DNA from: a virus
IMG/VR virus record: IMGVR_UViG_3300020163_000010
Span: 1-34,298 of that record
Length of the DNA stretch: 34,298 nucleotides
Direction: 5' to 3' (one strand)
Under the pieces are notes generated by a model that was given only the letters and a program-made list of their open reading frames with translations, did no database searches and was not told the DNA's origin. A program made the translations under genes and the position numbers. Positions 1 to 27,597 of this stretch are shown in pieces; within the stretch, counting starts at the first letter, position 1, and each line of letters begins with the position of its first letter.

Positions 1-256
1 GATTCAATCGTTATAAGGATATAACGCCATGAGCCTATTTAGTTCTATGTTACAACCCATTCTTGAGCACGAGCTTAAATCCCTTGAACCTGAAATAGCG
101 GCTTTCTTGTTAAACCTTACGAAGAACCTGGCCAAAGAAGTATTGGAATGGGCAGAGTTTAAATTCAATCTTGACCTAAACAACGATGGTGTAATTGGAG
201 AGCCTAAAAATGAAGCCTGAGAAACTAAAGAAGATGGCAGCTTTAAAGCCTATGAA
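1..256. repeat. left copy of imperfect terminal repeat
   Basis: The same 256 bases recur at 34043-34298 with no indels and run exactly to the end of the window. I count 17 mismatches: 16 fall within 128-172 and one is at 208. Positions 1-127 are identical. Bases 1-16 are the 3' end of the coiled-coil gene seen whole at 33888-34058 (stop TAA at 14-16). The simplest reading is an overlap of the ends of a circular or terminally redundant genome carrying two alleles. A true tandem duplication is the alternative. Confidence 0.9.
29..220 (+). CDS. small protein with EF-hand-like loop, allele 1
   Basis: A 63-residue acidic protein, preceded by AAGGATATAACGCC, a good ribosome binding site. Residues 1-45 look helical. 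A DLNNDGVIGE segment near residues 49-58 has the D-x-N-x-D-G-x-I spacing of an EF-hand or dockerin calcium loop, but the usual acidic residue at loop position 12 is a lysine. I do not recognise the family beyond this. The second allele at 34071-34262 is identical except in residues 34-48, where most codons are replaced. The gene is followed with overlap by a lysine-rich small protein. It lies upstream of TerL in what looks like one late operon. Function unknown. Confidence 0.75.
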   Translation: MSLFSSMLQPILEHELKSLEPEIAAFLLNLTKNLAKEVLEWAEFKFNLDLNNDGVIGEPKNEA

Positions 257-2973: not shown

Positions 2974-3219
2974 ATGTTATTGCAAGAAGCTTTAGTAAAT
3001 TTACAAGCAGGTAAACAAATGCACCGCGCAGCTTGGGACATCAAAGAAGGTTATTTGTCTTTAATGCCTGGTATGACTCATGTGTGGAAGGTTGTTATTA
3101 CTCCATCCACAAATGCAGGTAATTTTATGTTTTCAGTGGAAGACTTAACGTCTGATGACTGGCAAGAATTTGAATTACCAAAAGAAGCTGTTGACGCAGA
3201 AGTTGCAAACGCAGCTTAA
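2974..3219 (+). CDS. DUF2829 / Tad2-like protein (putative Thoeris anti-defence)
   Basis: An 81-residue single-domain protein. The start at 2974 has GGAGAAATAAGG upstream, and an in-frame ATG at 2932 lies inside the previous gene and is unlikely. It matches the DUF2829 layout: an N-terminal QEALVNLQAGKQMHRAAW helix-turn (residues 4-21), GYLSLMPGM (26-34), then a VEDLTSDDW C-terminal motif (55-63). The family includes Tad2, which sequesters the cyclic ADP-ribose signal of Thoeris immunity. The location among structural genes means late expression unless another promoter exists, which is unusual for anti-defence. A second, duplicated relative is at 25669-26043. Family assignment is firm; anti-Thoeris activity is inferred. 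Confidence 0.8.
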   Translation: MLLQEALVNLQAGKQMHRAAWDIKEGYLSLMPGMTHVWKVVITPSTNAGNFMFSVEDLTSDDWQEFELPKEAVDAEVANAA

Positions 3220-12496: not shown

Positions 12497-13825
12497 ATGG
12501 CTCTACCATTACCAAGAGTTATTCCTGACGTTGGCCCAGGTGGCGGACTTGTTACTGCTATGGGCGGAATGAATAAACTTAGCAATGAAATGATTTTGCG
12601 TAAAATTAACGATATTAAAAAACAATACGCACCTTTGACAACGCAAGCAGAAGCTGCTAGCAAGTTGGCTTATGCTAATCTAATGGGGCCACAATTTATG
12701 GCTAAACTGCTAGGTAATGACTCAGCTATTGCCAATATGGGAAGCCACCAAGCAAAACAAGCGCTTCAACAAGCAGTCAATGCTGGTATGGGCGGTGGAA
12801 ATGCCAACAATATCTTTGCGCAAATGCAGCAACAAAACCAAGGGCCAGGACAAAAGCTTGGTAATTCCTTGTCTAATTTCTTTGCTGACAAACTTAAAGG
12901 TGTATTTGGTGGTGGACAAGGTCAACCTGGAATGGGACAAATGCCAGGACAAGGCCAACCACAACAAGCACCACAACAGCAACCAATGCAGATGCCAAAC
13001 GATGCTGGGCAGCAATCGGCACCAATGGCACCACCAATGGGTAACCGTCCTAAAGATGGTGTAACCCTTGAAGGTGAGCAATGGTATAACGCTAAAGGCG
13101 AGCCTGTTTACGAAGAAGATGTGAATACCCCTGACGGCTCAATGAAACTTGAACTGACAAAGGGTATTCCGCCAAAAACCTACGCTCAAAACACAGGTGA
13201 GTATAAAGGAACCGTTAAGCAACTTGAGAAAGAAGGCGAATACCGTGCTGATGCGCTAAAACAAATTGGTGAAAGCCAGCTTGGGTTAAGTAATTCTGGT
13301 GCTGTTTTGGATAGGATGACAGGCATTATTACTAATCCGGTGTACTTGAATATGCGTAACAAAATACCTGGATTTCAAAATAAGCAGTTGGAATATTTAA
13401 AAGTCATGGGAACGCCAGAAGAAAAAGAGTTAATTGGAGACCTTACTGGAACTGGAGAAAGTTTTATTGCTTCAACTGTACAGGGATTTGGTGGAAAGCC
13501 CCTAGTTAGAGAGTTTGATTTGGCTCAAAGACAGAAAATTACAGGGCATGATACACCCGAATCAGCAAAAGGAAAATTGAAATCAGCTATAGCCCTCCAT
13601 GATATTGCTGATAAAAAACTTCAAATAATATCTGAATTATTGCAAAAAGGTTATAACGAAACTGATGCAATCAAACAAGTTAATAAAATGGTTGATGTAG
13701 GTGCTATTGAAAAGGCTACAAAAGAGCGATTACAAAGAAAAATCCAGGTTAGAAATAACAAAACTGGCGTAACCAAGATGGTAACTCTTGAAGAGGCTCG
13801 AAAAATGGGGGTTCCAAATGTCTGA
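12497..13825 (+). CDS. ejection / internal virion protein
   Basis: 442 residues, with AAGGATATAAATT before the start. An N-terminal helical region is followed by a low-complexity Gln/Gly/Met/Pro stretch (about 140-180) and a charged helical C-terminal domain. This is the second of three consecutive genes with ejection-protein features (P22 gp7, gp20 and gp16 are the analogues by position, not by clear similarity). The next gene begins inside its last codons. Confidence 0.68.
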   Translation: MALPLPRVIPDVGPGGGLVTAMGGMNKLSNEMILRKINDIKKQYAPLTTQAEAASKLAYANLMGPQFMAKLLGNDSAIANMGSHQAKQALQQAVNAGMGGGNANNIFAQMQQQNQGPGQKLGNSLSNFFADKLKGVFGGGQGQPGMGQMPGQGQPQQAPQQQPMQMPNDAGQQSAPMAPPMGNRPKDGVTLEGEQWYNAKGEPVYEEDVNTPDGSMKLELTKGIPPKTYAQNTGEYKGTVKQLEKEGEYRADALKQIGESQLGLSNSGAVLDRMTGIITNPVYLNMRNKIPGFQNKQLEYLKVMGTPEEKELIGDLTGTGESFIASTVQGFGGKPLVREFDLAQRQKITGHDTPESAKGKLKSAIALHDIADKKLQIISELLQKGYNETDAIKQVNKMVDVGAIEKATKERLQRKIQVRNNKTGVTKMVTLEEARKMGVPNV

Positions 13826-14714
13826 TTGGGAAGTCGTAACAGAGGCACCACCACAAAGCCAAGGCGCACCCATGAAGTCTGATTGGAGTGAAGTACCTCA
13901 AGAAGACAACCAGGAAAGCGCTTGGAAAAGAATACCAAGAGACGTTTTAATTGGCTTAACTCATGCGGGTAGAAATCTTCATAACCTACCGCATGACTTA
14001 GCGTCTTTAGGCGAATGGCCTATAGAGAAATTAAGAGGGAAGCCATTTGAACACCCATTGTCTTCATACCTTCCCAATGATACGGCAAATTATGCCGATG
14101 TTTGGGGTCAAAAAGGCGCGGGAACCACATTGGATAATGTGCTGCAAAAAGGCATTGAAATCGCCCCTGATGTGATTGGTGGTGTTAATGCGTTGCGTAG
14201 TTTGAAACTACTACCACACCTTACACGCAAGGGCGCAAGTAAGAACATTGTTAAGGCTCGTGAATTGGGTAAAACCAGGAATATGGGGCCACTGGAAGTT
14301 AACCCAGACCTGATAGAAGACACAAGACAGTTCTTGCCTAATACCACTCCTTACCGTAACTTGATTGATGATGCAGGTTATGGGGACTATAACAAATTAT
14401 TTTCCCTACAATCAGACCTTGGTAAACATGCAGGTGGTATGTCAAAAGACCGGTTCTCTAAAGCAAATCGTGCGCATGGGCGAGCAGGTCTTGAGGTTAG
14501 GGGTAACATTCTTAATGAGATGAAAAACTCAATGAGACAACAAGGTCATGGCGATATTGCAGATTTACTGACAAAAGGCCAAGATGAATATCGAAGATAT
14601 ATGAAATTTAAGCCCTACAGAAATGCGTTAATGGCTGCTGGCGCTGCGTACTCGTTACCTAGAAACGTATTGATTGACCTAGTTAAAAAAATGGCGACAA
14701 TGAGCAAAGACTAA
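13818..14714 (+). CDS. ejection / internal virion protein
   Basis: A 298-residue protein. The start ATGTCTGA overlaps the preceding stop by 8 bases; the upstream in-frame ATG at 13788 lies inside the previous gene. The N-terminus holds two short repeats around SDWEVV and SDWSEVP (residues 2-7 and 21-27), a pattern common at the N-terminus of large phage ejection proteins. A central hydrophobic/helical region follows, and VLIDLVKKMATMS is near the end. The N-terminal repeats suggest the virion-export region; no lytic or enzymatic domain is seen. It is the last gene before the fibre block. Confidence 0.7.
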   Translation: MSDWEVVTEAPPQSQGAPMKSDWSEVPQEDNQESAWKRIPRDVLIGLTHAGRNLHNLPHDLASLGEWPIEKLRGKPFEHPLSSYLPNDTANYADVWGQKGAGTTLDNVLQKGIEIAPDVIGGVNALRSLKLLPHLTRKGASKNIVKARELGKTRNMGPLEVNPDLIEDTRQFLPNTTPYRNLIDDAGYGDYNKLFSLQSDLGKHAGGMSKDRFSKANRAHGRAGLEVRGNILNEMKNSMRQQGHGDIADLLTKGQDEYRRYMKFKPYRNALMAAGAAYSLPRNVLIDLVKKMATMSKD

Positions 14715-14788
14715 AAGTCGATGTCTTTTGTGATGAACATTTGAATGACGTTGTAGGCTAGGAAGCCAAACAGCAATAAACTAATCAT
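14711..14788 (-). CDS. micro-ORF, single-pass membrane peptide
   Basis: A 25-residue ORF on the opposite strand to its neighbours. The sequence MISLLLFGFLAYNVIQMF is a strong transmembrane segment followed by a short charged tail. A plausible - strand promoter lies upstream (14816-14845). In P22 the equivalent interval holds superinfection-exclusion and immunity genes on both strands, so a membrane exclusion peptide is a reasonable idea but is not shown. It overlaps the preceding gene's stop by 4 bases. Confidence 0.4.
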   Translation of the reverse strand: MISLLLFGFLAYNVIQMFITKDIDF

Positions 14789-14815
14789 AGAAATCCGATT
14801 GGTTAACAAAAATAC

Positions 14816-14845
14816 ATTATAGTGGTTTTGGTGGATAAAAAACAA
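14816..14845 (-). promoter_or_regulatory. candidate promoter for the antisense micro-ORF
   Basis: Read on the - strand, TTGTTT (14840-14845) is followed after 18 bases by TATAAT (14816-14821), about 27 bases before the micro-ORF start. The -10 is consensus and the -35 is moderate. Confidence 0.45.
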
Positions 14846-14872
14846 GCATTATTTATATCAATGAAAATGCTT

Positions 14873-14878
14873 TAGAAT
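14873..14878 (+). promoter_or_regulatory. candidate -10 box for the fibre genes
   Basis: TAGAAT matches five of six consensus -10 bases and lies about 30 bases before the fibre gene start at 14908, in an AT-rich gap. No good -35 is visible 16-18 bases upstream, so this is tentative. Confidence 0.3.
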
Positions 14879-14907
14879 AGATACATAATTTCACAAGGAA
14901 TGTGAAT

Positions 14908-16527
14908 ATGACGATAAGTTACTTGCTGGCACCTACTCCAAAGTGGGTAATCATAGACAATAGCGGTGGCGTGGCTGGCGGAGCAAAGCTATACACGTAT
15001 CGTTCTTTAAATAAGACAGAAAAGAAAACTGTTTACCAAGACCCAGCAGGGACAATTCCTTGGACTAACCCTATTCTTTTTGACCTAAACGGCACGCAAG
15101 GCCCATTTTATTGGGCAGTAGATAGTGACGATTTAGCCGATACCTATTATTTAGAAGCTTACGACTCTCAAAATAATTTGCTTTGGACGGTAGACGACTT
15201 CTACCCTCCTGGTAGCGGAGGCGGTGGCATCGTCACAAGTTACATTCCTATTGTAAACTACATTACAAATAACCAGTTTATCAACCACATTGATGACATT
15301 GCGGGCAATATTGCACCCAATAACTCTTTGTCTACCAACTTGGTTATAGCGCCATCCAATCACAAAGGATTTACTCCGGCAACGAGTGTTCCTGTTGTTG
15401 GAACCTATGGAACGCTTGGCCCTGATATTCGATTTGTTAAAAGCAATACCAACGCAGCCGACAATATATTTTTTCCATTATTCCCCTTGGCAAGTTATCC
15501 GCTAACAGGCGATGTAACGCCCGTTGATTATGTGCGCTACCAGTGTACGAACAGTCCGGCAGGTGAAACGTATAAATCCTTCCAGCTCCCTATAACCCAA
15601 AAAGTTAAGAATTTGTCAAACCAATCGATGACCTTTGGCTTTTGGGCGGCAGTGGCAGCAACGCCTACTGATATAAACATTTATGTACGACAGTATTTTG
15701 GCTCAGGAACGGCTGCAAGTGCCGAAGTTAGAACTTTGATTGGCACAGCAAGCCTTACCACCACATGGACTTGGTTTCCCTTTAACTTTGCCATTCCATC
15801 AGTTGCGGGAAAATCCCTAGGAACACCAGGGCAAACCACTAATGATGATGCGCTTTATATACAGATTGAAATGCCATTGGGCATTCCTTGTGACGTGTAT
15901 TTTATCAAGCCCGCATTGTTCTTGGGCGACATTGACCCAGAGCTTGAGTTTGATTCTTACGACCAAATTGACTCTATTAATACGACTCCAAGAACAGGTG
16001 ATGTTCGACCAGGGTATTTAATTACCGCACCTGGTGGCTGGGTTCCAATGAATGACGGGTCAATTGGTAACGTAGGTTCGGGTGCTACGACTCGCGCAAA
16101 CCAAGATACTTTTCAGCTTTATAAAACTGTTTATGATGCGGTTATTGATACTTGGGCACCTGTATCTGGTGGTCGTACTGGAAGTGCAACAAACGACTTT
16201 ATTGCTGGAAAGACTTTAACCCTACCCAGGGTTTTAGGTCGAGTATTGGCAGAGGCCGGAGCAGGTTCGGGATTAACTGCAACAGCACTTGGGCAATGGA
16301 GCGGTGCGGAAGCGTATAACACAACGCTTGTTGCTGCAAACCTTCCACCTCACTCACACACCTACACCTTTACTAACGTAGGCGCAGGGTTTGGATTTGG
16401 TTTTGCTCAAGGTACGAATCTTACAACTGCTGCTGGCAATACAGGGAATGGCCCTGGAACCTCAACGCCATTTGCAACGTCTGCGTTGCAGCCTGGCACG
16501 TACATGAATTTTTACATCAAACTTTAA
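14908..16527 (+). CDS. tail fibre / spike with collar-type C-terminus
   Basis: 539 residues from the ATG at 14908, which has AAGGA 8 bases upstream; a GTG at 14902 is less likely. The N-terminal domain (about 1-110) is a compact beta domain with GGAKLYTYRS and PGSGGGG, which looks like a virion-attachment head followed by a Gly hinge. The middle region is beta-rich and carbohydrate-binding-like. The C-terminal part (about 370-539), with GYLITAPGGWVPMNDG, LPRVLGRV and NLPPHSHTY, is a phage tail-collar domain. It is the first of four consecutive fibre-region genes and probably contacts the host surface. Confidence 0.82.
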   Translation: MTISYLLAPTPKWVIIDNSGGVAGGAKLYTYRSLNKTEKKTVYQDPAGTIPWTNPILFDLNGTQGPFYWAVDSDDLADTYYLEAYDSQNNLLWTVDDFYPPGSGGGGIVTSYIPIVNYITNNQFINHIDDIAGNIAPNNSLSTNLVIAPSNHKGFTPATSVPVVGTYGTLGPDIRFVKSNTNAADNIFFPLFPLASYPLTGDVTPVDYVRYQCTNSPAGETYKSFQLPITQKVKNLSNQSMTFGFWAAVAATPTDINIYVRQYFGSGTAASAEVRTLIGTASLTTTWTWFPFNFAIPSVAGKSLGTPGQTTNDDALYIQIEMPLGIPCDVYFIKPALFLGDIDPELEFDSYDQIDSINTTPRTGDVRPGYLITAPGGWVPMNDGSIGNVGSGATTRANQDTFQLYKTVYDAVIDTWAPVSGGRTGSATNDFIAGKTLTLPRVLGRVLAEAGAGSGLTATALGQWSGAEAYNTTLVAANLPPHSHTYTFTNVGAGFGFGFAQGTNLTTAAGNTGNGPGTSTPFATSALQPGTYMNFYIKL

Positions 16528-16542
16528 CAAGGAGAATAACGA

Positions 16543-16845
16543 ATGGCCGTACAACTATGTCTTATACAGCCCTTAGACCCAAATGCTTACACGGGGCCAA
16601 CTCGTGTTATGTCAGGAGTCGCACGCACAGGCGATGCAACACCAGACTCTTATTATGGGCCTAACGGTTCAGTCGAATTCGCTCGCTGGCTTTATATCGG
16701 TGTGCAAGGTGACGTTTCCTATACAAAGTGGGACGGCACGGAACAGACTCTTGTCGGATTGGCTGCTGGCGTATGGCACCCTGTTTTCTCTATTAGAATA
16801 AACAGCGCAGGTACAACAGCTACTGATTTGGTATGGGGAAGTTAG
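16543..16845 (+). CDS. small tail protein
   Basis: A 100-residue beta-rich protein with AAGGAGAATAACG before the ATG. The C-terminal half (WLYIGVQGDVSYTKWDGT near 47-64, then AGVWHPVFSIRINSAGTTAT) matches small conserved proteins found beside tail genes in many siphophages and podophages, thought to be tail-tip or capsid-surface components. No more specific role can be claimed. Confidence 0.75.
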   Translation: MAVQLCLIQPLDPNAYTGPTRVMSGVARTGDATPDSYYGPNGSVEFARWLYIGVQGDVSYTKWDGTEQTLVGLAAGVWHPVFSIRINSAGTTATDLVWGS

Positions 16846-16888
16846 CTAACTTCAAAGGGTAATTACTATTAATTAAAAGGAATTTAAA

Positions 16889-17965
16889 ATGACTATTCAC
16901 TTTTCACAAACAGTATTTTCACCATGGTTAACACCTGTGCGTTTGGCTTCAACATCAAATATCGCAGGTGTTTATAGCAATGGCCCTAGTAACAATGGCG
17001 TTGGTGCTACACTAACCGTTGCTGCATCGTCTTTGACTATCGACAGCGTTGCCGTAGAAGTTGGCGACCGTGTATTGCTTCAAACCCAAACAAACACTTA
17101 TGAACAAGGTGTGTACGTTGTTCGTGCAATCGCTTCAAGTGTCATCCTTGAGCGTTCAGATGACCAACAAGTCATTGAACAAATAAAAGCTGGCCAATAC
17201 GTAGCTGTTGGCGCGGGTTCCGTTCATGCTGGTAACTTCTACACGCTTGTCGAACCATTACCACAATTCATTGGTATCAGTGCCATTGTATGGAACGCAG
17301 ACCCATCTGCCGGAGGTGTTACATTTTCTGGAGGCGCGTCTACTGCGAACGCTTTGGCTGTCTTTTCTGATACGGCAGGAAACCTTAAAGAGGCATCTAC
17401 AACAACCACATTGGGCCAAGCGTTAAACATTACAGGCGCATTGGGTGTATCTGGTGGAGCAACTGTATCTACAGGTAACTTAGCTGTTTCTGCGGGAACA
17501 ATTACTGCTTCTGGCGCAATTACTTCTACTGCTGGAAACATTACCTCTGGTTCTTCTGGCGATGCTGGTACGTTTGTTGCTTTCCCTGCGACTGCTGCAA
17601 ACGGAACCATGATTATTGCTGCTGGTAATGCTGGTGGCGCGTTCAACACCACAATCACTAGCGGTACAATAGGTCAGTCTACTGTTTATACGGTTCCTGA
17701 TATCGGTGCTGCAACTGGTGGCGTGGTAGTTTCTACAGCTGCGGTTCGTATGAAATCAGTTGCAGGTGCTGCCGCTGCTGGTGGTGCTGCTGCTCAGTCA
17801 TTCACTGATGCTTTCTGTACTTCTGGAAGTAACGTGATTGGTAACTGGAATACTCAAGCAAACGCTGCCTCTGTACTGAAAATCGTACCAGGTAACGGAA
17901 GCTTTGTAGTAACCAGTTCTGCTGATGCGGGCGTTGGAACATTCAACTACATCATCATGAAGTAA
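16889..17965 (+). CDS. tail-fibre-like beta-repeat protein
   Basis: A 358-residue protein with AAAAGGAATTTAAA before ATG. The N-terminal domain (about 1-130) has a beta fold with LERSDDQQ, known from proteins at the base of phage fibres. After a Gly/Ser hinge the middle is a Thr/Ser/Gly/Ala-rich repeat region (alternating TSTAGN, SAGTIT), and the C-terminal domain resembles phage trimerisation heads. It is followed by a strong terminator, so it ends a transcription unit. Confidence 0.78.
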   Translation: MTIHFSQTVFSPWLTPVRLASTSNIAGVYSNGPSNNGVGATLTVAASSLTIDSVAVEVGDRVLLQTQTNTYEQGVYVVRAIASSVILERSDDQQVIEQIKAGQYVAVGAGSVHAGNFYTLVEPLPQFIGISAIVWNADPSAGGVTFSGGASTANALAVFSDTAGNLKEASTTTTLGQALNITGALGVSGGATVSTGNLAVSAGTITASGAITSTAGNITSGSSGDAGTFVAFPATAANGTMIIAAGNAGGAFNTTITSGTIGQSTVYTVPDIGAATGGVVVSTAAVRMKSVAGAAAAGGAAAQSFTDAFCTSGSNVIGNWNTQANAASVLKIVPGNGSFVVTSSADAGVGTFNYIIMK

Positions 17966-17972
17966 TAAGCCC

Positions 17973-17998
17973 AGGGGGATTAATTTCCCCCTTCTTTT
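17973..17998 (+). terminator. rho-independent terminator
   Basis: AGGGGGA (17973-17979), loop TTAATT, TCCCCCT (17986-17992), then TCTTTT. It lies 8 bases after the preceding stop and is the clearest terminator in the late region. Confidence 0.9.
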
Positions 17999-18000
17999 AA

Positions 18001-18147
18001 ATGGAATTAAAGATGCAAGGTGCATATGGTGGATTAATCATAGTTATTGCTTACGGCATGGGCCAAGGGATTATAGAAGACTATTTTCTATGGCTTGATA
18101 CCACACCGTTCACTCTTTTGAGTGGAGAGCGATTAACATTATTGTAA
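18001..18147 (+). CDS. possible small membrane protein
   Basis: A 48-residue ORF between the terminator and the large fibre gene. The N-terminal half (GAYGGLIIVIAYGMGQGII) is a likely membrane segment and the C-terminal half is polar. The ribosome binding site is weak for both the ATG at 18001 and the one at 18013. It precedes the 928-residue fibre by 12 bases. A role as a fibre chaperone or membrane factor cannot be told from sequence. Confidence 0.45.
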   Translation: MELKMQGAYGGLIIVIAYGMGQGIIEDYFLWLDTTPFTLLSGERLTLL

Positions 18148-18159
18148 GGGATTACAAGC

Positions 18160-20946
18160 ATGTCTAAAAATATATTGCAGGTCTATCAAGACAACCCTAT
18201 TGTAACGAATCAAACAACGGATTTGATGTATTTTGGTCGCTCACCTTATGGGCTTGGCGATGACACTGCAATGCGGTTTTCAGACTTTGCAGCCCAATTT
18301 GGTGCTTCTTACACACCTTCCCCATTGACTAAAGTGGATGATGCCAACGTTACGGTGACATTAACAGGCACGCCCGCAACAGCGTTACTTCAATCCGTCA
18401 CGATGACCCTTGGCTGGACTGGACTCCTTGCCATAGCCAGAGGGGGTACAGGTGTTGGCTCGGTAACAATCGTACCCACCGCGACTGCTTTTGCGGGTTG
18501 GGACGCTAACAGCAATCTTTCGGCTAACAACTTCCTAGCTGGAACTGCTTTAGTTACCAATAGCGGGGGTACAACCACATTGACAGTGGCAAGTGCAGGT
18601 CAACAAATATTTAGCGGAGCAACTTTCCAAACTGCACAAATGCCAGTTGTTGCAACTCTTGCAACAGGTCAAACATACCGATTAATTAATGACTCTAGCA
18701 ATGCGTTGTTTGTTGTTTCATCAGGTTCAAACGCTGTTGTAACCATGCAACCATTAACCCAGGCGCTTCTTACTTATAATGGGGTCGCTGGAACGGCTGC
18801 TGCTTCTTGGGATTTACAATACACCTCAAACACAATTGGGGTTCAATCATTAACCGGAACTGCTGGGCAAATTGCTGCAAGCTCTCCAACTGGAAACGTA
18901 ACTGTATCTTTGGTTTCAAACGCTGTATTGCCTGGAACTGGTGGGGTTACTTTGCCTCAAGGAACCACCGCACAACAAGCTGGCGCTGCTGGAACTATGC
19001 GTTTTAATACCCAGACTTCGGTTTTTGAAGGAACGGTTGATGGCGTTACGTGGACTTCATTTAGTACGGCTGCTGGAACCGTTGTAAGCGTAACTGGGAC
19101 TTTAAACAGAATCACATCCACTGGCGGAACGACCCCTGTAATTGATATTGCCGCAACTTATGTTGGGCAGACTTCAATAACCACACTAGGCACAGTGTCA
19201 ACAGGAACGTGGAACGCGACACCCATTGATTTGGCAACCTATGTAAGTGGGAATCTTGCTGTTACTCATTTAAATAGCGGTACTGGTGCCTCATCAGGTA
19301 CTTACTGGCGAGGTGATGGAACATGGGGAACACCTCCTGGAACTGGTGTAACCAGTGTTTCAGGAACAACAAACCGAATTACATCGACAGGTGGAACTAC
19401 TCCGGTTATCGATATTGCAGCCACATACGTTGGCCAAACATCTATTACAACCCTAGGCACTGTTACCACGGGAACGTGGAACGCAACGCCAATTGACTTG
19501 GCAACCTACGTGTCAGGGAATTTGGCCGTAACCCATTTAAACTCAGGAACGGGCGCCACATCCGGTACGTTTTGGAGGGGTGACGGAACTTGGGCGGCTC
19601 CTGCGGGAAGCGGCACTGTAAACTCAGGTAACATTAATCAATTGGCATGGTATGCAGCCAACGGAACAACGGTATCAGGATTAACCACGGCAAATAATGG
19701 CGTCTTGGTTACAAGTGGTGTTGGCGCTCCAAGCATAAACACCACATTACCAAACGGTTTGGCTATGGGGACACCTGCATCATTAACCTTAACCAATGCA
19801 ACCGGATTGCCCGTAGGTGGTATTTCTGCAACTGGTACACCAAGTTCATCAACTTATTTAAGAGGTGATGGTACATGGGCAACCAGTGCGACTGTTACAC
19901 CTGCTGCACTCACCAAGACAGACGATACGAACGTTACGTTAACTTTAGGTGGCACACCTGCTACAGCATTGCTGCAAGCCACATCACTCACTTTGGGATG
20001 GACTGGGACTTTAAGCCCAGCGCGAGGTGGTACGGGTGTAAATAACGGAACAAGCACCATTACATTGAATGGAAACTTAACAACTTCTGGCGCTTTTGCT
20101 AGCACGTTCACAATGACGGGCATTACTTCGGTAACATTTCCTACAAGTGGAACCCTGGCTACAACAAGTCAATTGCCAACACCTGCTGCATTAACGAAAA
20201 CGGATGATACCAACGTAACCCTTACACTTGGTGGCACACCTGCAACGGCTCTTCTGCAAGCCACGTCATTGACGCTTGGATGGACTGGAACATTAGCGGT
20301 AACTCGTGGTGGTACGGGTCTTGGCTCCGTGGCGCAAGGTGATTTGTTATATGGAAGTGCAGCGAATACAATCACTGCATTAACAAAAGACACCAATGCT
20401 ACGAGATACTTGTCAAATACTGGAACAAGCAATAATCCAGCATGGGCGCAAATAAATCTAGCCAATGGCGTTACAGGTAACTTGCCAGTAACGAATCTAA
20501 ACAGCGGAACTGACGCAAGTGCATCAACCTATTGGGATGGTTCAGGAAATTGGAGTACTCCACCGGGCGCAACACATTTACAATCTTCCAAAACGTATAC
20601 ACTTGCTCAAGTAGTTGCATCCAACGTAACTCCATTAACTTTAGTTGCTGCTGTGGCTAGCAAAACCATTGTCGTAACAAGCATCCAGGTTTATGTAAAT
20701 AATGGTGGTATTTCATTTTCACCATCAAATCCAACATTCCAAACTACTTATAATGCTACAGGTGTAACTGTTTCATCTCTCACTACAGGTTTAGGTACTG
20801 TTAACTCATTAAGTCAAATGACGTTAACTAATTCTGTAACCATGACATCAGTTCAAGGTTCTGCTTTGAACTTTAAAACAACATCTATAATTACGGGGGG
20901 AACAGGTTCTACCTTTGTAGTAACTGCCAACTATTACTTGCTTTAA
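18160..20946 (+). CDS. long repetitive tail fibre
   Basis: A 928-residue fibre with AAGGGATTACAAGC before ATG. It contains two kinds of internal repeat. One is an 89-residue unit present twice in tandem (about 19084-19350 and 19351-19617). The other is a unit of about 45 residues present three times (from about 18313, 19899 and 20178) with [19 protein letters not shown] and TLGWTG cores. The last 120 residues (from about [10 protein letters not shown]) form a separate, non-repetitive domain, probably the receptor-binding tip. Ser/Thr/Gly-rich beta repeats suggest a trimeric shaft. Tandem repeats of this kind can vary in number between relatives. Confidence 0.85.
19084..19617 (+). repeat. tandem 267-base repeats in the fibre gene
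   Basis: Two adjacent 89-codon units encode almost the same protein segment ([20 protein letters not shown] and following residues), but their DNA differs at many third codon positions. Selection has kept the protein while the DNA has drifted or been selected to differ, which would also limit recombination between the units. Confidence 0.85.
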
Positions 20947-20979
20947 TTGACTGCGATAGATGGAATTGATGCTATTTTT

Positions 20980-21067
20980 TGCCGGGCAACAAAATCAAAA
21001 AACCTCCTGTAAGTTGTTTATGATTGGAAAGCCTAAAAGTGGAAGCAATAAGCCCTCCTGCCCGGCA
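20980..21067. repeat. inverted repeat after the fibre gene
   Basis: TGCCGGGCA (20980-20988) and TGCCCGGCA (21059-21067) are perfect inverted 9-mers 70 bases apart, bracketing the start of the integrase remnant. There is no hairpin-plus-T-run, so a recombination site or an insertion scar is as likely as a transcript structure. Confidence 0.5.
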
Positions 21068-21290
21068 CTTTACAAGCACTATTGTCTTTATAAGTATTGA
21101 AAGGTCGATATCACCACATAAATTAAGACATTTTTTGTTTACTTGGCTAAAGACAAAGAATATAGACGATGCTTTTATTCAACCCTACTCAGGACATGTT
21201 AAAAGAGATTCTCTTGAAATTTATTCTAAGCTAAGTTTGGCTAACGCACAGGATAAATATAACGATGTTATTGGGGATTTTCCTGTATGA
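21024..21290 (+). pseudogene. C-terminal fragment of a tyrosine recombinase (integrase)
   Basis: An 88-codon ORF with only a TTG start. Residues 31-80 are the C-terminal catalytic part of a tyrosine recombinase: HKLRH (32-36, with the catalytic His and Arg), SGH (56-58) and the nucleophile-type Tyr67 in [12 protein letters not shown]. The N-terminal core-binding domain and the first catalytic Arg are missing. No longer frame exists upstream, where the fibre gene ends, so this cannot be an active integrase. It may be a relic of a lost lysogeny module or a piece of a host element picked up by recombination. Confidence 0.8.
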
Positions 21291-21370
21291 TGCCCTTAGT
21301 TTTGCGTCAGGGCGCGAGTTCCGGAGCCCTAGGCCTATATAGTAATCTTTAAAAACAGGGAGAGTTACAA

Positions 21371-21598
21371 ATGACGTATGGTTCACAGCAATTAAGTTCA
21401 GAATTATCCGCTTTAAATCAAAATAAAGAAATTGCATTTCAACAATACCATAAGATTTGCGGTGCAATTGAAATGGTAGAAGCTATGCAAAAAATTTGTC
21501 TTGAAAATGAAAAAGCATTGCAAGCTAAAAAAGACGAAGAGGAAAAAGCCGCTGAAATAAATAACGCTGCGACAATGGATTCAGCCGAAGCCGATTAA
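21371..21598 (+). CDS. hypothetical coiled-coil protein
   Basis: A 75-residue acidic helical protein with AGGGAGAGTTACAA before its ATG. Heptad-like spacing runs through about residues 8-60 (LSSELSALNQNKEIAFQQY, then a Lys/Glu-rich helix), ending in a small disordered tail. No domain is known. It is convergent with the early gene at 21595-21831 and overlaps its stop by 4 bases. Expression may be late, since it is on the structural strand. Confidence 0.7.
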   Translation: MTYGSQQLSSELSALNQNKEIAFQQYHKICGAIEMVEAMQKICLENEKALQAKKDEEEKAAEINNAATMDSAEAD

Positions 21599-21831
21599 TT
21601 CATTAGGGGCGCAATAAGTTCATAACCACGACTTTTGCGCCTTTTCATCATCTGCTCAATCGTTTTTTTCGCTTCTTCTTCGGAACACAATAAAATGCTC
21701 TTAGCACCACCGCGATTTGAATTGCAGCTACCCCAATGATAATCGAGAATAATATTAGTAAGTCCATTTTTTTTGACTGTTATTTGATAAAATCGGTCTT
21801 TAGTTTTGTTTAGCCATTGGTAGGTCAGCAT
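21595..21831 (-). CDS. WGR-domain protein
   Basis: A 78-residue protein made almost entirely of one WGR domain: FYQITVKKNG (14-23), HWG (32-34, with S in place of the usual Arg), GGAKSILLCSEEEAKKTIEQ (41-60) and the terminal KSRGYE (66-71). WGR domains bind nucleic acid or NAD-linked partners in PARPs and occur alone in some bacterial and phage proteins. It is the last gene of the - strand operon. Its ATG lies within the 3' end of the upstream ORF. Possible roles are DNA-end binding or regulation; neither is shown. Confidence 0.78.
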   Translation of the reverse strand: MLTYQWLNKTKDRFYQITVKKNGLTNIILDYHWGSCNSNRGGAKSILLCSEEEAKKTIEQMMKRRKSRGYELIAPLMN

Positions 21832-22012
21832 AGGTACTCAACATCTCATCTAAAGTTTGTTTGATTTCTGTATATTCCTCTTCGTCCATAAAGAAAGTTG
21901 GGTCTTGAACATCCAGTTCTAAACCTTCAACGTAAAAACGCAATGTATTCTCGCCTAAAAAGTAAGCATAGTACGAAAAAGAGATCTCGTGCGCAAGAGG
22001 AATAATTAATTT
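21800..22012 (-). CDS. probable small CDS with non-canonical start
   Basis: An open frame of 70 codons between two stops with a clearly protein-like sequence (HEISFSYYAYFLGENTLRFY, then FFMDEEEYTEIKQTL and DEMLSTYADLPMAKQN). It contains no ATG or GTG near its 5' end; the candidates are ATT at 22004-22006 or the adjacent ATT codon, or a TTG well inside. The stop overlaps the WGR gene start, the same coupling used throughout this operon. Either a non-standard start is used or the gene has lost its start and is decaying. The frame begins just after a TAA at 22013-22015. Confidence 0.5.
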   Translation of the reverse strand, partial: KLIIPLAHEISFSYYAYFLGENTLRFYVEGLELDVQDPTFFMDEEEYTEIKQTLDEMLSTYADLPMAKQN

Positions 22013-22031
22013 TTACAATTTCCGAAAAAAT

Positions 22032-22274
22032 TCAATCGATTCCGTTTCCTTGATTTTTACCTAACAATTGTGCTAGCTCAACATCGAGCGCAATAGAATT
22101 AGGCGTTAAGCAGCCCTCATTCATTTCACGAACAAGGTGAACCAAAAACATGTATGCTATTTGAACGGCTTCTGGGTTTCGTGTTTTAACATTGCGCTCC
22201 ATGTTATCCAGGAACTTGTGAACATTTTTAAGTTCACGCAATACGCCTAGGCGCATTTTATTAATGTCGTTCAT
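22032..22274 (-). CDS. hypothetical early protein
   Basis: An 80-residue predominantly helical protein (VLRELKNVHKFLDNMERNV near 11-29 and IAYMFLVHLVREMNEG). The start overlaps the preceding small zinc protein gene by 14 bases. I recognise no family. It lies between the zinc-ribbon gene and the ORF with the unusual start, within the operon driven from near 23259. Confidence 0.65.
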   Translation of the reverse strand: MNDINKMRLGVLRELKNVHKFLDNMERNVKTRNPEAVQIAYMFLVHLVREMNEGCLTPNSIALDVELAQLLGKNQGNGID

Positions 22275-22425
22275 CGGTTAATTCTGGGTTTTGCGTGTAC
22301 ATCTCCTGAGACTCTTTTTGAGAAAATATTTTAAGAGCTACGACATTCGTTACCGCATTACAATTACAGCAAATGCGCTGAAATGGGTTGATGGCGTGCC
22401 ATTCATGTTTGCATTCCTTGTCCAC
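22261..22425 (-). CDS. small Cys/His protein, zinc-ribbon type
   Basis: A 54-residue protein beginning with GTG, 7 bases after GGAG, and overlapping the end of the serine recombinase gene. It contains CKHEWH at residues 5-10 and CCNC at 19-22, a C-x-H ... C-x-x-C arrangement for one zinc ion, then a polar tail. It was too short for the usual ORF length cut-off. Such proteins in phage early operons are often DNA-binding or inhibitors; its role here is unknown. Confidence 0.65.
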   Translation of the reverse strand: MDKECKHEWHAINPFQRICCNCNAVTNVVALKIFSQKESQEMYTQNPELTDERH

Positions 22426-22981
22426 TAATTTGCTCCTTTACTTTGTAAATTGTTGCTCGTGAAACGTTCATATCTTTGGCAATGCTTCGTATGGATTGAC
22501 AACTTTCGAGCTTCTCTTTGACAACTTTTCTAAATTTATTGTCAATCTTACCTGGTCGCCCCAAATGTTTTCCTGCTTTCTTGGCGGCGTCAATTCCCTC
22601 TCGCTGACGAGAACGAATCATGTTACGTTCAAACTCAGCAAAGGCACCCATAATTTGCAAGGTTAGGTTTGCCATAGGGTCTTTTGAAGAATTGAAAGTA
22701 AGGTTTTCTTTAATAAATTTAACTGAGACACCCTTTTTAATAAGGGAATTGATTATTTCTTGAAGGTCTAGCAAATTCCTAGCCAATCTATCAATACTAT
22801 CAACAACAAGGGTGTCCCCTTCACGCACGTATTCCATACATGCAATAAGATTTTTTCTGTCCATAGTACTTCCTGTTATGGTATCGACAAATTCCTTATC
22901 TAATTGTATATCAACCAGTTGACGTGCAATATTTTGCCCTGTTGATGAAACTCTGATGTATCCTACAACTTGATGACTCAT
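22403..22981 (-). CDS. serine recombinase (resolvase/invertase family)
   Basis: A 192-residue small serine recombinase. YIRVSS at residues 8-13 carries the catalytic Ser12. The catalytic domain continues with DRLARNLLDLQEI and AEFERNMIRSRQREGI (the long E helix). After KHLGRPGK comes a helix-turn-helix (SIRSIAKDMNVSRATIYKV) near the C-terminus. The size and order fit the Tn3 resolvase / Hin invertase subfamily, not the large phage integrases. The ATG at 22981 is preferred over TTG at 22993, but neither has a clear ribosome binding site and translation may be coupled to the gene ending at 22984. I found no gix/hix-like sites near the fibre genes. Confidence 0.92.
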   Translation of the reverse strand: MSHQVVGYIRVSSTGQNIARQLVDIQLDKEFVDTITGSTMDRKNLIACMEYVREGDTLVVDSIDRLARNLLDLQEIINSLIKKGVSVKFIKENLTFNSSKDPMANLTLQIMGAFAEFERNMIRSRQREGIDAAKKAGKHLGRPGKIDNKFRKVVKEKLESCQSIRSIAKDMNVSRATIYKVKEQISGQGMQT

Positions 22982-22983
22982 AA

Positions 22984-23205
22984 TCAAAGCCAATGCAAAT
23001 ATTTCATAGCAGCAGGAAGCATTACAGTTCCTAGCATAATAGTAATAATGAAGTTCAGTTTGAAATCCATCTTGTCCATACGCTTCTCAAGAGAGCCAAA
23101 TTTATCTTGATAGCGTTTATCATTGTTTTGAAATAATTCTGAATGAAGCCTAAGCTGGACTTCATGTTCAATATAATGTTCTGTTTCTTTGGTAAATGCG
23201 GTCAT
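22984..23205 (-). CDS. small coiled-coil membrane protein
   Basis: A 73-residue protein with AGGAGATGTAAAG before ATG. A charged coiled-coil region spans about residues 5-50 and a hydrophobic segment (LNFIITIMLGTVMLPAAM) about 50-67, ending with KYLHWL. The layout suggests a peripheral-to-membrane protein, such as an antiholin, an exclusion factor or an anchor. It is the first gene after the strong promoter at 23232-23259, so it is probably expressed early and at high level. Confidence 0.65.
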   Translation of the reverse strand: MTAFTKETEHYIEHEVQLRLHSELFQNNDKRYQDKFGSLEKRMDKMDFKLNFIITIMLGTVMLPAAMKYLHWL

Positions 23206-23231
23206 CTTTACATCTCCTAATTTATAAAGAT

Positions 23232-23268
23232 ATTATAGCACCTTTTTATGCAATGTAAAATAAGGTGC
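23232..23268 (-). promoter_or_regulatory. strong promoter overlapped by a dyad operator
   Basis: Read on the - strand: -35 TTTACA (23254-23259), 16-base spacer, -10 TATAAT (23232-23237). A palindrome, GCACCTT (23238-23244) with AAGGTGC (23262-23268), overlaps the -35 and spacer, so a dimeric repressor bound there would block the promoter. It drives the coiled-coil/serine recombinase/WGR gene group. Confidence 0.75.
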
Positions 23269-23329
23269 CATATATAGTTTATAACATAGGTGATTCAGTA
23301 TGTTTTGATTGATTGTCGTTGAGTGTACC

Positions 23330-23467
23330 TTAAAGCCACCCTTCATATGTGGGATTTAGCTTTTTGCAGCGGGTGCAAAAAAACTTGTCGGGCATACGTT
23401 GTTCGTTAGGCGGTTCATAACCGCCAAAACGATGACCTAACAACAAACAAACCAATCTTTTAATCAT
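23330..23467 (-). CDS. small Cys-pair protein, DUF1660-like
   Basis: A 45-residue protein: MIKRLVCLLLGHRFGGYEP at the start and FCTRCKKLNP further on. A single CxxC plus an earlier Cys and His at residues 7 and 11 is the layout of small phage proteins of the DUF1660 type (hydrophobic N-terminus, GH, then CxRC). The ATG overlaps the stop of the DnaB-N gene. A perfect hairpin GGCGGTT-CAT-AACCGCC lies within the coding sequence at 23409-23425. Function unknown. Confidence 0.65.
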   Translation of the reverse strand: MIKRLVCLLLGHRFGGYEPPNEQRMPDKFFCTRCKKLNPTYEGWL

Positions 23468-24065
23468 GTTGCTCCAATTCAAAGTGATTCTCTTCAAAAT
23501 GTTGTAATGTGCAGCCTAGCGCCCTGTTTACCTCAACAATCGTGTGGCGTATATAGTCCTCGTCTAGTTCCGCAGTAGCGATTTCTTCGGCAAGCTCTCT
23601 TAAGTAATGGGTTAAATGCGTTTGCGCCGGACATGCGGTTACGTCCTCTTCTTCGGCAATGCTCATTACTTTGGCTTCGGCTTCGTCCAAAATCTCTTTG
23701 AAATCTTTATTACCAGGTTTCAAAGCACTTTGGGCAATCTCAGTCGCTACACCAATAAGCTGGCGTTTTACTGATTTCTCGCGCACGATGTCCACGTAAG
23801 CCAATATGTTTTTGGTCGATACCGTTTCGTTGGCCATCTCGAAAATATATTTTTCTAATGGCTTAAATCTCATGCTTACAAGTCCGGCCTCAAAGCTTTT
23901 GTGTTCGTCCCATAGCAACTGCATGACATGGTATATACAACGGTGGTCTTTTTTGGCAAAATCTTCGGTACACAGTTTGTCTTTTACGACATTGAAATAA
24001 CTGCTGTCTAACAGTAGTCCGCCTAAAACCGCTCTTTCTGCTTCAATTGATTTTGGTAATTGCAC
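23460..24065 (-). CDS. stand-alone DnaB N-terminal domain protein
   Basis: A 201-residue protein; GTG start at 24065 with AAGGAGCATAAC upstream. Residues 3-130 match the N-terminal domain of replicative helicase DnaB (PKSIEAERAVLGGLLLD at 4-20, a helical collar-forming domain that binds primase). DnaB is about 450-470 residues and carries its RecA-type ATPase at the C-terminus; that part is absent here. The remaining ~70 residues are acidic and not helicase-like. It may bind host DnaB or DnaG and redirect or block them, or act as an adaptor in phage replication. It is probably not a helicase. Confidence 0.8.
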   Translation of the reverse strand: MQLPKSIEAERAVLGGLLLDSSYFNVVKDKLCTEDFAKKDHRCIYHVMQLLWDEHKSFEAGLVSMRFKPLEKYIFEMANETVSTKNILAYVDIVREKSVKRQLIGVATEIAQSALKPGNKDFKEILDEAEAKVMSIAEEEDVTACPAQTHLTHYLRELAEEIATAELDEDYIRHTIVEVNRALGCTLQHFEENHFELEQHD

Positions 24066-24066
24066 G

Positions 24067-24417
24067 TTATGCTCCTTGTGGTTTATATCCTAAAAGTCCC
24101 TGGATTGTTTCGCAGCCTTGAATTATTTGCCCCAAAGCCTGGTTTAGTTTAACTATTTTTTTGCGATGCAATATTATCTCAATAGGCACTTCTCGCAAAA
24201 CCCATTTAGCCTTTCCACCTTCGCGCTTAATTGATAATTCCCATCCATGCTCTAGTAGAAGCTCGCGTACATCAGGGGTTAACGTCCCGCTTTTATTGCT
24301 TACCCCTGTGATTTCTGCAAGCTCATCAGACCTTAAACCTTCTGGGTGCTTAATGAGTGCGTCAATCATTTTGCGCTGGTTAAAACTTATCAATGGGTAT
24401 AAGGTTTCTATACTCAT
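24067..24417 (-). CDS. winged-helix DNA-binding protein
   Basis: A 116-residue protein with AATAAGGAGATTGGA before its ATG. Residues 9-60 form a winged helix: ISFNQRKMIDALIKHPEG, then LRSDELAEITGVSNKSGTL as helix-turn-helix, and a wing with KREGGKAKWVLREV. The C-terminal 40 residues are helical and may be the dimer arm. It precedes the DnaB-N gene in the operon (stop overlaps the next start region). It could be a replication or transcription regulator. Confidence 0.75.
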   Translation of the reverse strand: MSIETLYPLISFNQRKMIDALIKHPEGLRSDELAEITGVSNKSGTLTPDVRELLLEHGWELSIKREGGKAKWVLREVPIEIILHRKKIVKLNQALGQIIQGCETIQGLLGYKPQGA

Positions 24418-25218: not shown

Positions 25219-25515
25219 TTACTTGGTTCCCTCACTCGTGAGGGTAGCGGCCGTGTATTGCTCTTTTGCGTCCAGCAGCGCTTCAAGGTATCCTTTGTTC
25301 CATTTTGGAAACTGGTACGGTTCCGTGTTTTCTAATTGTAATTCTTTTTGATTCAATATGGCAAACTCTAACCAATCTGCAAAGGGATCGACTTTTTTAG
25401 CACAGCTCTTTAGTATATGCCTATCCAGCGTAACTTTCTCTATCTCGTCCTTAGTTATTTCACCGCGATTAAAAAGTCCGTTTACATACTCTGAGCATTC
25501 CTTACAATCAATCAT
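25219..25515 (-). CDS. hypothetical early protein
   Basis: A 98-residue protein from the ATG at 25515, chosen because AAGGAAG lies just upstream; an ATG at 25542 lies inside the previous gene. It has a CKEC pair at residues 4-7 and a third Cys near 38, then a helical polar remainder. No family is recognised. It lies in the region with the Tad2-like gene, a zinc-ribbon gene and Sak4. Confidence 0.65.
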   Translation of the reverse strand: MIDCKECSEYVNGLFNRGEITKDEIEKVTLDRHILKSCAKKVDPFADWLEFAILNQKELQLENTEPYQFPKWNKGYLEALLDAKEQYTAATLTSEGTK

Positions 25516-25672
25516 GTTTGCTTCCTTCTTTTGGTTCGCCACAAAAATAAGCGTATGAAACGGGGTACCATGGATGCCCCGCTAAAAACTTTTTATCCTG
25601 CTCCGTCATTTTTCTACCGCACTCGTTTTTACAATCAGGAGATGCGCAGTATGTTCTATCTTTGAATGTCAT
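25508..25672 (-). CDS. small zinc-ribbon phage protein
   Basis: A 54-residue protein starting in an ATGA overlap with the Tad2-like gene. TFKDRTYCASPDCKNECGRK (2-21) with C9, C14 and C18, and a fourth Cys in YAYFCGEP, form a treble-clef-like zinc site. This is a common small phage protein type (DRTFC..p.C...CGR). Its cellular role is not known to me. Confidence 0.75.
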   Translation of the reverse strand: MTFKDRTYCASPDCKNECGRKMTEQDKKFLAGHPWYPVSYAYFCGEPKEGSKHD

Positions 25673-26043
25673 TCTTCAATCCAATCGGTTGCCATGAATG
25701 AATCAAACTCAGGAACGAAGGGGAAGCTGTCCATCATATGAAGTACCAGTCTGCCCGTGGTCTTATCCAGGAATATGTAAGAGTCCGTCCACTCTTCCAT
25801 TTGCGCACGTTTTCCATCATTTAAAAATGGAATTATTTCGCAAAAGGTAAGCGGCTGGGTATCTCCTTCAATAAACCACCCATCAGAAACCATAATGCTT
25901 TCATCGTAGGTGTAATCTAAAAATCTAGGCTGGTAAGACATTACCTCTTCGCCCTGCATCATGAAATAAAGGCTTCCTTTCCATACGCTTCTGGTAACTT
26001 TCGCCCCATTCTTAAGCAAATCCATTGCTTCGCAGAAATTCAT
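25669..26043 (-). CDS. two-module DUF2829 / Tad2-like protein
   Basis: A 124-residue protein with AGGGAGTCAAACTA before its ATG. Residues 1-59 and 65-124 are a tandem duplication: MNFCEAMDLLKNGAKVTRSVW against LTFCEIIPFLNDGKRAQMEEW, and the end motifs IMVSDGWFIE against FMATDWIEE. Each half is a shortened DUF2829 module. DUF2829 includes Tad2, which binds the Thoeris cyclic ADP-ribose messenger. The single-module relative is at 2974-3219. The two halves are diverged, so they may bind different ligands. It lies in the early operon, where an anti-defence protein is expected. Ligand binding is inferred. Confidence 0.75.
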   Translation of the reverse strand: MNFCEAMDLLKNGAKVTRSVWKGSLYFMMQGEEVMSYQPRFLDYTYDESIMVSDGWFIEGDTQPLTFCEIIPFLNDGKRAQMEEWTDSYIFLDKTTGRLVLHMMDSFPFVPEFDSFMATDWIEE

Positions 26044-26089
26044 TAGTTTGACTCCCTAGATAATTATTGCAGTAACTCCGAAACTTAAG

Positions 26090-26148
26090 AGCGCACATTC
26101 CCGTCATGACGGTGGGAAGTGATGTTGAAAAACCATCACGAGTGCGCT
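26090..26148 (-). ncRNA. three-way-junction RNA element between SSB and Tad2-like genes
   Basis: Outer stem AGCGCAC/GTGCGCT (26090-26096 with 26142-26148) encloses two hairpins: GTGATG/CATCAC (26119-26124 with 26134-26139) and TTCCC/GGGAA (26098-26102 with 26114-26118). The second can also form the palindrome CCGTCATGACGG. It lies in the 140-base gap upstream of the Tad2-like gene. It could be a riboswitch-like leader, a processing signal or a transcription pause. It is not a standard terminator because no T-run follows. Confidence 0.6.
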
Positions 26149-26183
26149 TACTCCAAAGACTTTTAAATATCCCATCATTCACC

Positions 26184-26687
26184 TTATAGAAATGGTGGAA
26201 TATCATCATCAGTAAACGGTGGTGGTGTATCGCCATTCGGTGCACCGTTCGCCCCTTGTTCGCCTTTTGTTAGGTAATCTTCCACCTTATTTTTGTCTGG
26301 ATACTTAGAACCCATCGGTTTGCCTTTTAACTTATCTTGGGGTATTTCGCCACCCTGCTCCACAGTTATTTTTACCTTAACGGTCTTGTTAATGGCAACT
26401 TGAGAACAAAGTTTACCGTCTGCATATTCTTTTTGAATTCCCGCAGATTCCGCAAAGTGTACGACTTTCCACATCATTTGTTTGGTGAACACTAAAAAGT
26501 CCCTAATGTCGTGTGGCTTGCCCGCTTCATCATAACAAGTAACGGTCATGTCCATCATAGGATTACCCGAATTTGCAGACGTGGTATCTTGCGAAGCGGT
26601 AATAACCGCCTCATAAATTCCTTCTTTCATTAATTGAAATCGCTCAGCCATTGCTTCCTGCTTTGACATTGGTTGATACTGAAACAT
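26184..26687 (-). CDS. single-stranded DNA-binding protein, DUF669-like
   Basis: A 167-residue protein with AAGGAGAATAAAGT before its ATG. An OB-fold-like body (MKEGIYEAVITASQDTTSAN near 20-39, then DFLVFTKQMMWKVVHF) is followed by a Gly/Asn-rich linker and the acidic C-terminal tip TDDDIPPFL, the SSB-type tail that recruits partner proteins. The body resembles DUF669. It lies next to the Sak4-like recombinase, the known Sak4-SSB pairing in phage single-strand annealing recombination. Confidence 0.88.
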   Translation of the reverse strand: MFQYQPMSKQEAMAERFQLMKEGIYEAVITASQDTTSANSGNPMMDMTVTCYDEAGKPHDIRDFLVFTKQMMWKVVHFAESAGIQKEYADGKLCSQVAINKTVKVKITVEQGGEIPQDKLKGKPMGSKYPDKNKVEDYLTKGEQGANGAPNGDTPPPFTDDDIPPFL

Positions 26688-26690
26688 ACT

Positions 26691-27536
26691 TTATTCTCCT
26701 TGTATTTTAGACTTCATGAAATCGATACACTTTTGAATCGAATCTTTTTGCATGTCCGACCAAGCATCAGAATTGGCTTTATCCAACCATTTTTGCGTAG
26801 TCTCCTCACTTACCTTGAGCAACTCAATGAGTCGTTCAATCTCTTTAATTTGGTCAGGTGTAGCCAGTTCTTGCGCCACTGCTTCACGTTCAATTACCGC
26901 CCGTCCGTAACGGTCTGCAATCTCTTCATAAGAGAATGGGAACGTGTCTGTATCTTGGAACGTCTCAAAGCGTGACTTCTTAACCAAGCCCACACGATGG
27001 GTTCCACGCTTTTGAATCTCAAACACTAAATCGAAAAGGTAATCTAATTTCTTGTAACAGTCGAACGTTTGCCCTAAAACTGCCAAATTTTGTCCGTACT
27101 CATTCTTGCTATGAGAAGTAATAATAACGTTCATGTCCAAGCGGAACAGCAAGTTTAATAGCTGCTTCATGCGCTTGTTAGCTTCACCGTAATGGCGACC
27201 AAAATCAGTACCCACTTTGCGCTCTGCCTTTTCGAGCAGGTCATTGTATGACAAGGTTAGCGAGTCGATGATTAACGTTTTATAGTCGTGCTTTGTGGTT
27301 AACAATTCACGTACTTCATTAATCATTTCGTCAAAGTCTACGGTCATAAGCACCGCACCGTCTGACTTTTCAATCAAGCGTACATACTGTGGCTTGTTGG
27401 TTGAACCCTCAGTGTCAATGATATAGGGCTTCGGGAATTGAATTGCAGCATACGTTTTGCCGACACCAGCAGAACCATAAAACAATGCTTTCATTCTGCA
27501 CTCAGACACCAAAGGTTTTTTTGCTTTTAACGCCAT
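26691..27536 (-). CDS. Sak4-like RecA-fold recombinase
   Basis: A 281-residue protein starting at 27536 with AGGAGAAGTAAAA upstream; an earlier in-frame ATG at 27563 has no good site. Walker A GSAGVGKT is at 21-28 and Walker B TLIIDSLT at 87-94, with HSKNEYGQ as a later sensor region. It belongs to the AAA/RecA-like group of phage recombination proteins (Sak4), which anneal single strands with help from the SSB encoded next to it. The C-terminal 60 residues are helical. It may also support replication restart; the Sak4 role is the best-supported. Confidence 0.88.
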   Translation of the reverse strand: MALKAKKPLVSECRMKALFYGSAGVGKTYAAIQFPKPYIIDTEGSTNKPQYVRLIEKSDGAVLMTVDFDEMINEVRELLTTKHDYKTLIIDSLTLSYNDLLEKAERKVGTDFGRHYGEANKRMKQLLNLLFRLDMNVIITSHSKNEYGQNLAVLGQTFDCYKKLDYLFDLVFEIQKRGTHRVGLVKKSRFETFQDTDTFPFSYEEIADRYGRAVIEREAVAQELATPDQIKEIERLIELLKVSEETTQKWLDKANSDAWSDMQKDSIQKCIDFMKSKIQGE

Positions 27537-27597
27537 TTTTACTTCTCCTAACATAGTTAACATAAAGTGCTCACTTAAGAGCTTAGATAAACCCCAT

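Follow-up and report, generated by a model that had tools for sequence, protein, structure and literature searches.

The Tad2 fold is used in other phages for mopping up bacterial alarm molecules. Classic Tad2 is a homotetramer whose gcADPR pockets are shared between protomers, one protomer contributing strand beta4 together with the beta1-beta2 and beta3-beta4 loops, and the other the beta1-beta2 loop, the beta4-alpha3 loop and helix alpha3 (PMC12043709). Some Tad2 proteins also have a second site, which takes up cyclic dinucleotides via an insertion between beta2 and beta5, which is long in the HgmTad2/SptTad2 type (PMC12043709). Tad2 from the Bacillus phage SPO1 is a single 89-aa module that forms a homotetramer (PMC12043709, PMC13299392). 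Tad2-like proteins are widespread in phages, and the Pfam name alone is easily read as an anti-Thoeris or anti-CBASS sponge. Here we describe a Tad2-like protein with two modules, encoded by a soil phage in a 34.3 kb IMG/VR virus record with podovirus-type head genes, which was analysed over its whole length of 34,298 nucleotides (the window).

P0001 contains two Tad2-like modules in a single chain

The protein and its modules map to the window as follows:
25669..26043, minus strand: tandem two-module Tad2-like protein P0001, 124 aa (PF11195, AlphaFold2, dN/dS)
25864..26043, minus strand: module 1, residues 1-60 (PF11195 match of the N half, DSSP of the model, family alignment)
25672..25851, minus strand: module 2, residues 65-124 (PF11195 match of the C half, element order as in module 1)

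The boundaries of the open reading frame were exact, and the gene was assigned to the minus strand, for which the original prediction had given no orientation; a reading of the same interval on the plus strand is interrupted by stops and was rejected. The whole protein matched Pfam PF11195 (Tad2-like, formerly DUF2829) in two separate stretches, with 47 bits (E=3.8e-12). Taken alone, the N half scored 29.5 bits (E=1.1e-6), above the curated cut-off of 25 bits, and the C half 21.9 bits (E=2.7e-4), just under it. Alignment of one half to the other gave a Smith-Waterman score of 52, reached by one in 5000 shuffles (mean 22.4, sd 4.3), and a comparison of module 1 and module 2 profiles built from 20 family members returned a probability of 93%. 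These comparisons indicate that the internal duplication proposed in the original prediction is real and old. The shared ends described for the two halves were found in part: the FCE...W start is present in both, whereas the DW end is present in module 2 but reads DGW in module 1. The tandem family has its own signature in module 1, Y.x.E.IM.S.GW, where its invariants are concentrated (Y46, E48, I50, M51, S53, G55 and W56); in the family alignment, invariant columns, polar ones included, were more frequent in module 1 than in module 2. Searching NCBIfam with the tandem protein gave no match.

Both halves are predicted to adopt a Tad2-like fold

An AlphaFold2 model of P0001 based on 14 family sequences had a pLDDT of 90.6, one of five runs being confident and the others reaching 57-62. 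The model of a 59% identical homologue, based on 17 sequences, had a pLDDT of 88.7, with two confident runs (88.7 and 82.5). DSSP analysis of the P0001 model assigned to module 1 a helix (3-11), three strands (16-18, 26-30 and 33-43), a helix (48-51) and a strand (56-58), and to module 2 a helix (67-75), three strands (80-82, 89-93 and 98-108), a helix (113-117) and a strand (121-123). The full-length models were thus checked for a DUF2829 fold common to both halves, the point on which the original prediction hung: in both models each half repeats the order helix, strand, strand, strand, helix, strand, the final strand being short in the homologue, and the prediction withstood this check.

Comparison of the P0001 model with the PDB (VIA-align) returned strong matches to SPO1, Myroides, Spt and Hgm Tad2 only, with Z scores of 9.7-11.2 over 61-62 residues and an rmsd of 1.4-1.8 Å. 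The homologue model matched Tad2 chains with Z 8.3-9.8 over 60 residues, and non-Tad2 folds scored at most 3.1 with the models. The best match was SPO1 Tad2 (8sme, 8smf and 8wje; 61 residues, 1.4 Å, Z 11.2), whose alpha1-beta1 motif F.EA...LK.G..V.R..W is retained in module 1. HgmTad2/AcrIIA7 and SptTad2 (8kbi, 8kbk and 8wjd) share the fold with Z 9.7-10.7, as does a Myroides prophage Tad2 with bound His-ADPR (9eib; Z 9.3-10.4). Foldseek against BFVD aligned the tandem protein to A0A2K9VAK2, a short DUF2829 protein of 60 aa from Klebsiella phage KpS110 that has a single module instead of two, with a TM score of 0.81 over 124 columns.

The Tad2-aligned range extended over residues 1..124 and 1..123 in the two models although 60-62 residues align, and the Foldseek match had the same span from residue 1 to the end. 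Because the range spans the whole chain with about 60 residues aligned, the matched Tad2 lobe combines the start of module 1 with the end of module 2. What is left for the second lobe would then be the contiguous middle of the chain, a circular permutant of the Tad2 fold. We give about even odds to an intertwined pseudo-dimer, with one lobe mixing both halves, as opposed to two beads. Far more confidence attaches to the predicted Tad2 fold of each module than to this arrangement, which could be an artefact because both AlphaFold2 jobs share most of a shallow alignment. A chimera of the module 1 start and the module 2 end scored 25.4 bits against the canonical profile, a small difference from the 23.8 bits of module 1. 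The earlier suggestion of a pseudo-dimer made from one chain is backed by the sequence and by both models, in a form more intertwined than had been imagined. With respect to the homotetramer pockets of classic Tad2, a single P0001 chain already holds two modules.

The tandem gene is an accessory gene of a replication and recombination operon

The genes next to the tandem gene are:
26691..27563, minus strand: AAA_24 / Sak4-like ssDNA annealing ATPase (PF13479, 3.2e-23; phrog_124, 6.8e-29)
26184..26687, minus strand: SSB-like protein with an acidic DDDIPPFL tail (phrog_378, E=3.3e-10)
25508..25672, minus strand: following gene, encoding 54 aa with Cys, whose start overlaps the tandem gene stop (ATGA)

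The Sak4-like ATPase gene lies upstream of SSB in one operon, within the minus-strand order RHH-like, Sak4-like AAA, SSB, tandem gene, DnaB N-terminal domain and DNA invertase. The operon is of the replication/recombination type and, judging from gene order, probably early. The ATG of the tandem gene is preceded by a Shine-Dalgarno-like AGGGAG, a good ribosome-binding site. No RNA structure was supported between SSB and the tandem gene (z = -0.7). In five relatives (L003-L006 and L008), this gap (26044-26183 of the window, minus strand) holds a small, conserved and hydrophobic open reading frame of about 39-43 aa that reads GFGVSALVMVFQHHFPL.WWECALLSFGITAIII. The window and L002 have an in-frame TGA that cuts it after HHFPPS. 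The DNA invertase/resolvase (22403-22993, minus strand; phrog_125, E=1.4e-55) is encoded near the tail-fibre region, and no clear pair of inversion sites was found in 13700-24100.

Relatives of the tandem gene were found in 24 other IMG/VR contigs, with identities of 57-100% for most and 39% at the lowest. None was found in the bacterial and prophage genome contigs searched, and no GenBank phage record matched most of the protein. In every carrier contig with a readable flank, the tandem gene lies downstream of the Sak4-like AAA and SSB genes on the same strand. Gene content in this region varies between relatives. In one relative (G835), which has AAA/Sak4, SSB is followed directly by the next conserved gene, with no tandem gene in between, and the tandem gene is therefore accessory; another contig (G841) breaks in this region and is uninformative on its presence. 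Several relatives carry a tandem gene only 59% identical, compared with 89% for SSB and 89-97% for the neighbours, and in several, additional small genes flank it, as in an accessory slot. In one contig (L033:5910-6518, minus strand), a calcineurin-like phosphoesterase gene (phrog_547) lies directly upstream of the tandem gene with a 4-base overlap. Among seven close relatives the dN/dS of the tandem gene was 0.07-0.15. It was low in both modules wherever dS was computable, so neither half is decaying. Such strong purifying selection is untypical of a fast arms-race protein, and it counts, as does the replication/recombination type of the operon, against a counter-defence reading.

The constant position behind AAA/Sak4 and SSB, the ATGA coupling with the downstream neighbour seen in the window and the strong purifying selection would all suit a replication or recombination accessory, in which the Tad2 fold would have been reused as a binder of SSB, the Sak4-like ATPase or DNA. 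We regard this role as unlikely, though less so than the other alternatives: the relative with AAA/Sak4 and SSB does without the gene, in several relatives the gene has diverged more than SSB, other small genes are inserted beside it, and P0001 is rich in acidic residues, which argues against plain DNA binding.

The canonical Tad2 ligand-loop residues are lost in both modules

Residue conservation was compared in an alignment that joined 20 tandem proteins and 22 late proteins of the single-module type to 73 canonical Tad2 proteins found in bacterial genomes, the ligand-touching parts of Tad2 being taken from an element-level description (PMC12043709). Ligand-loop columns conserved at 99-100% in the canonical proteins were N22, G23, K24, M26, W91, S94 and D97. 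None of the 20 tandem proteins keeps N22, K24, the W of W..SQ, S94 or D97 in module 1, and most of them have also replaced G23 and M26 there. The canonical columns are missing from module 2 as well, except D97 (8/20) and S94 (3/20). The canonical signature WNGK.M; W..SQ.D is thus lost in both modules; the structural residues F3, G13, W21 and W103 are retained. Neither module contains the cyclic-dinucleotide insertion (beta2-beta3 / beta2-beta5), the strands being joined by a turn of 2-4 residues. Unlike SPO1 Tad2, the tandem protein has two modules of about 60 aa per chain without the insertion and without both signature motifs; it also differs from HgmTad2/SptTad2 in the missing insertion, and from the Myroides protein, a single module with canonical signature residues. 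Because the signature residues and the insertion are lost, binding of gcADPR or cyclic dinucleotides is not indicated, and the sequence offers no support for known signals being bound as they are in classic Tad2. For the same reason, the original suggestion that the tandem modules could bind two cyclic-nucleotide signals found no support. With the ligand-loop residues lost, it is the fold alone that argues for sponge activity.

If the Tad2 fold served as a scaffold only, P0001 might bind and inhibit a defence enzyme, as an anti-CRISPR-like or anti-nuclease protein. The Tad2 structure 8kbi was deposited as the type II CRISPR-Cas inhibitor AcrIIA7, and the conserved hydrophobic residues I50, M51 and W56 of module 1 could form an interface; AcrIIA7/HgmTad2 was, however, also solved with small ligands (8kbj and 8kbk), and no target is indicated for the tandem protein. 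We consider this somewhat less probable than the replication role. A classic anti-Thoeris/anti-CBASS sponge, with one site per module and a different cyclic signal at each, is more doubtful again. P0001 belongs to the Pfam family of Tad2, which binds gcADPR and in some cases cyclic dinucleotides at its second site (PMC12043709), and the matched structures include ligand-bound entries; the replaced invariants of module 1, the near-complete loss of those of module 2 and the absent insertion speak against such sites, as do PF11195 module scores of 28 and 20 bits, compared with 78-97 for most canonical members. Least probable is a nested Tad2, in which a circularly permuted module would sit inside the second module at the classic ligand-insertion site, giving an obligate one-chain asymmetric sponge with a single new pocket for a novel defence signal.

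A second Tad2-like gene and the survey of tandem proteins

A further Tad2-like gene is present near the other end of the window:
2974..3219, plus strand: Tad2-like gene P0002 with a single module, flanked by TerL and portal (PF11195, E=6.2e-7)

This match confirms the count of three Tad2-like modules originally proposed for the phage. With one exception (G835), contigs of relatives of at least 33 kb have three modules, from the two-module gene and the single-module gene by the portal. The P0002 gene, a late gene, is conserved in relatives, and its family (window 2974-3219 and loci L138-L160) reads HVWKIVL.P.PNAGNYIFSVEDL..DW with very little change. Like the tandem protein, the P0002 family matches PF11195 as a short module and occurs in the same genomes; unlike it, P0002 adjoins the portal, is far more conserved (HVWK, NAGNY.FS.EDL..DW) and retains S..D and DW. 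Its conservation suggests a structural or core function more than an arms-race protein.

No tandem Tad2 was found in 26 genomes with 29 PF11195 matches, among the 16 matches listed from 796 Pseudomonadota and Bacillota genomes, or in 16 phage records, a survey that divergent tandems could escape. With a canonical Tad2 query, no more than 416 places were hit, spread over 410 phage records. PHROG families 6670, 1048 and 872 found no support as known tandems, and positions 60-120 of phrog_6670 were not matched by module 2 as a second repeat. The long Tad2-like proteins encoded by phages Iacchus, 521B, Lenus, PaBG and TJE1 were likewise rejected, profiles recognising one clear module in each. Adjacent single-module genes and clusters of Tad2-like genes are found elsewhere: Staphylococcus phage SpaA1 (L030) has neighbouring DUF2829 genes, P60 and P61, with a 1-base overlap and four PF11195 modules in total, and Lactobacillus phage Iacchus (L133), of the Herelleviridae, has several genes close together at 109800-114600 whose Tad2-like modules are weak and whose C-terminal extensions resemble one another, so that the Tad2-like family is expanded in this phage. 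One Pseudomonadota genome (G336) has five Tad2-like matches on four contigs, several of them in open frames of 218-292 aa. Tandem Tad2 modules were undescribed in the literature within reach of our search, which lay outside the primary Tad2 papers. PF11195 matches surveyed elsewhere never shared a frame, and P0001 thus appears to be novel as a tandem, miniaturised form of the known Tad2 fold.

Discussion

Our leading explanation, which we hold tentatively, is that P0001 is a tandem, miniaturised and diverged member of the Tad2-fold superfamily that acts as a one-chain pseudo-dimer and an early counter-defence protein, capturing a nucleotide-like ligand. The modules, the selection and the fixed place behind the recombinase and SSB were observed, and the fold comes from predicted models; early production and the counter-defence role are what we infer. 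Counter-defence leads as a guess because of the probably early operon, the accessory occurrence and the fold, and both the replication-accessory role and the protein-binding inhibitor are serious rivals to it.

On the explanation of early ligand capture, two modules of about 60 residues, lacking the long beta2-beta3 insertion, would pair within one chain into the pseudo-dimer. This small counter-defence protein would be made early in infection and would most likely act by stoichiometrically capturing a small ligand, nucleotide-derived or of a similar kind. The family-specific conserved residues of module 1 (Y, E, IM, S, GW) may form the ligand face, with module 2 mainly a partner scaffold in the role of the second protomer of classic Tad2. 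Binding of gcADPR, His-ADPR or a cyclic dinucleotide in the classic mode is improbable.

In this family the fold takes a shrunken tandem form that has lost the classic signature residues, and the Tad2-like name is therefore no licence to assign a function. If P0001 is a sponge, the one-chain pseudo-dimer with its changed pocket would point to a signal outside the known Tad2 range; if it is not, it would be a clear case of reuse of the Tad2 fold.
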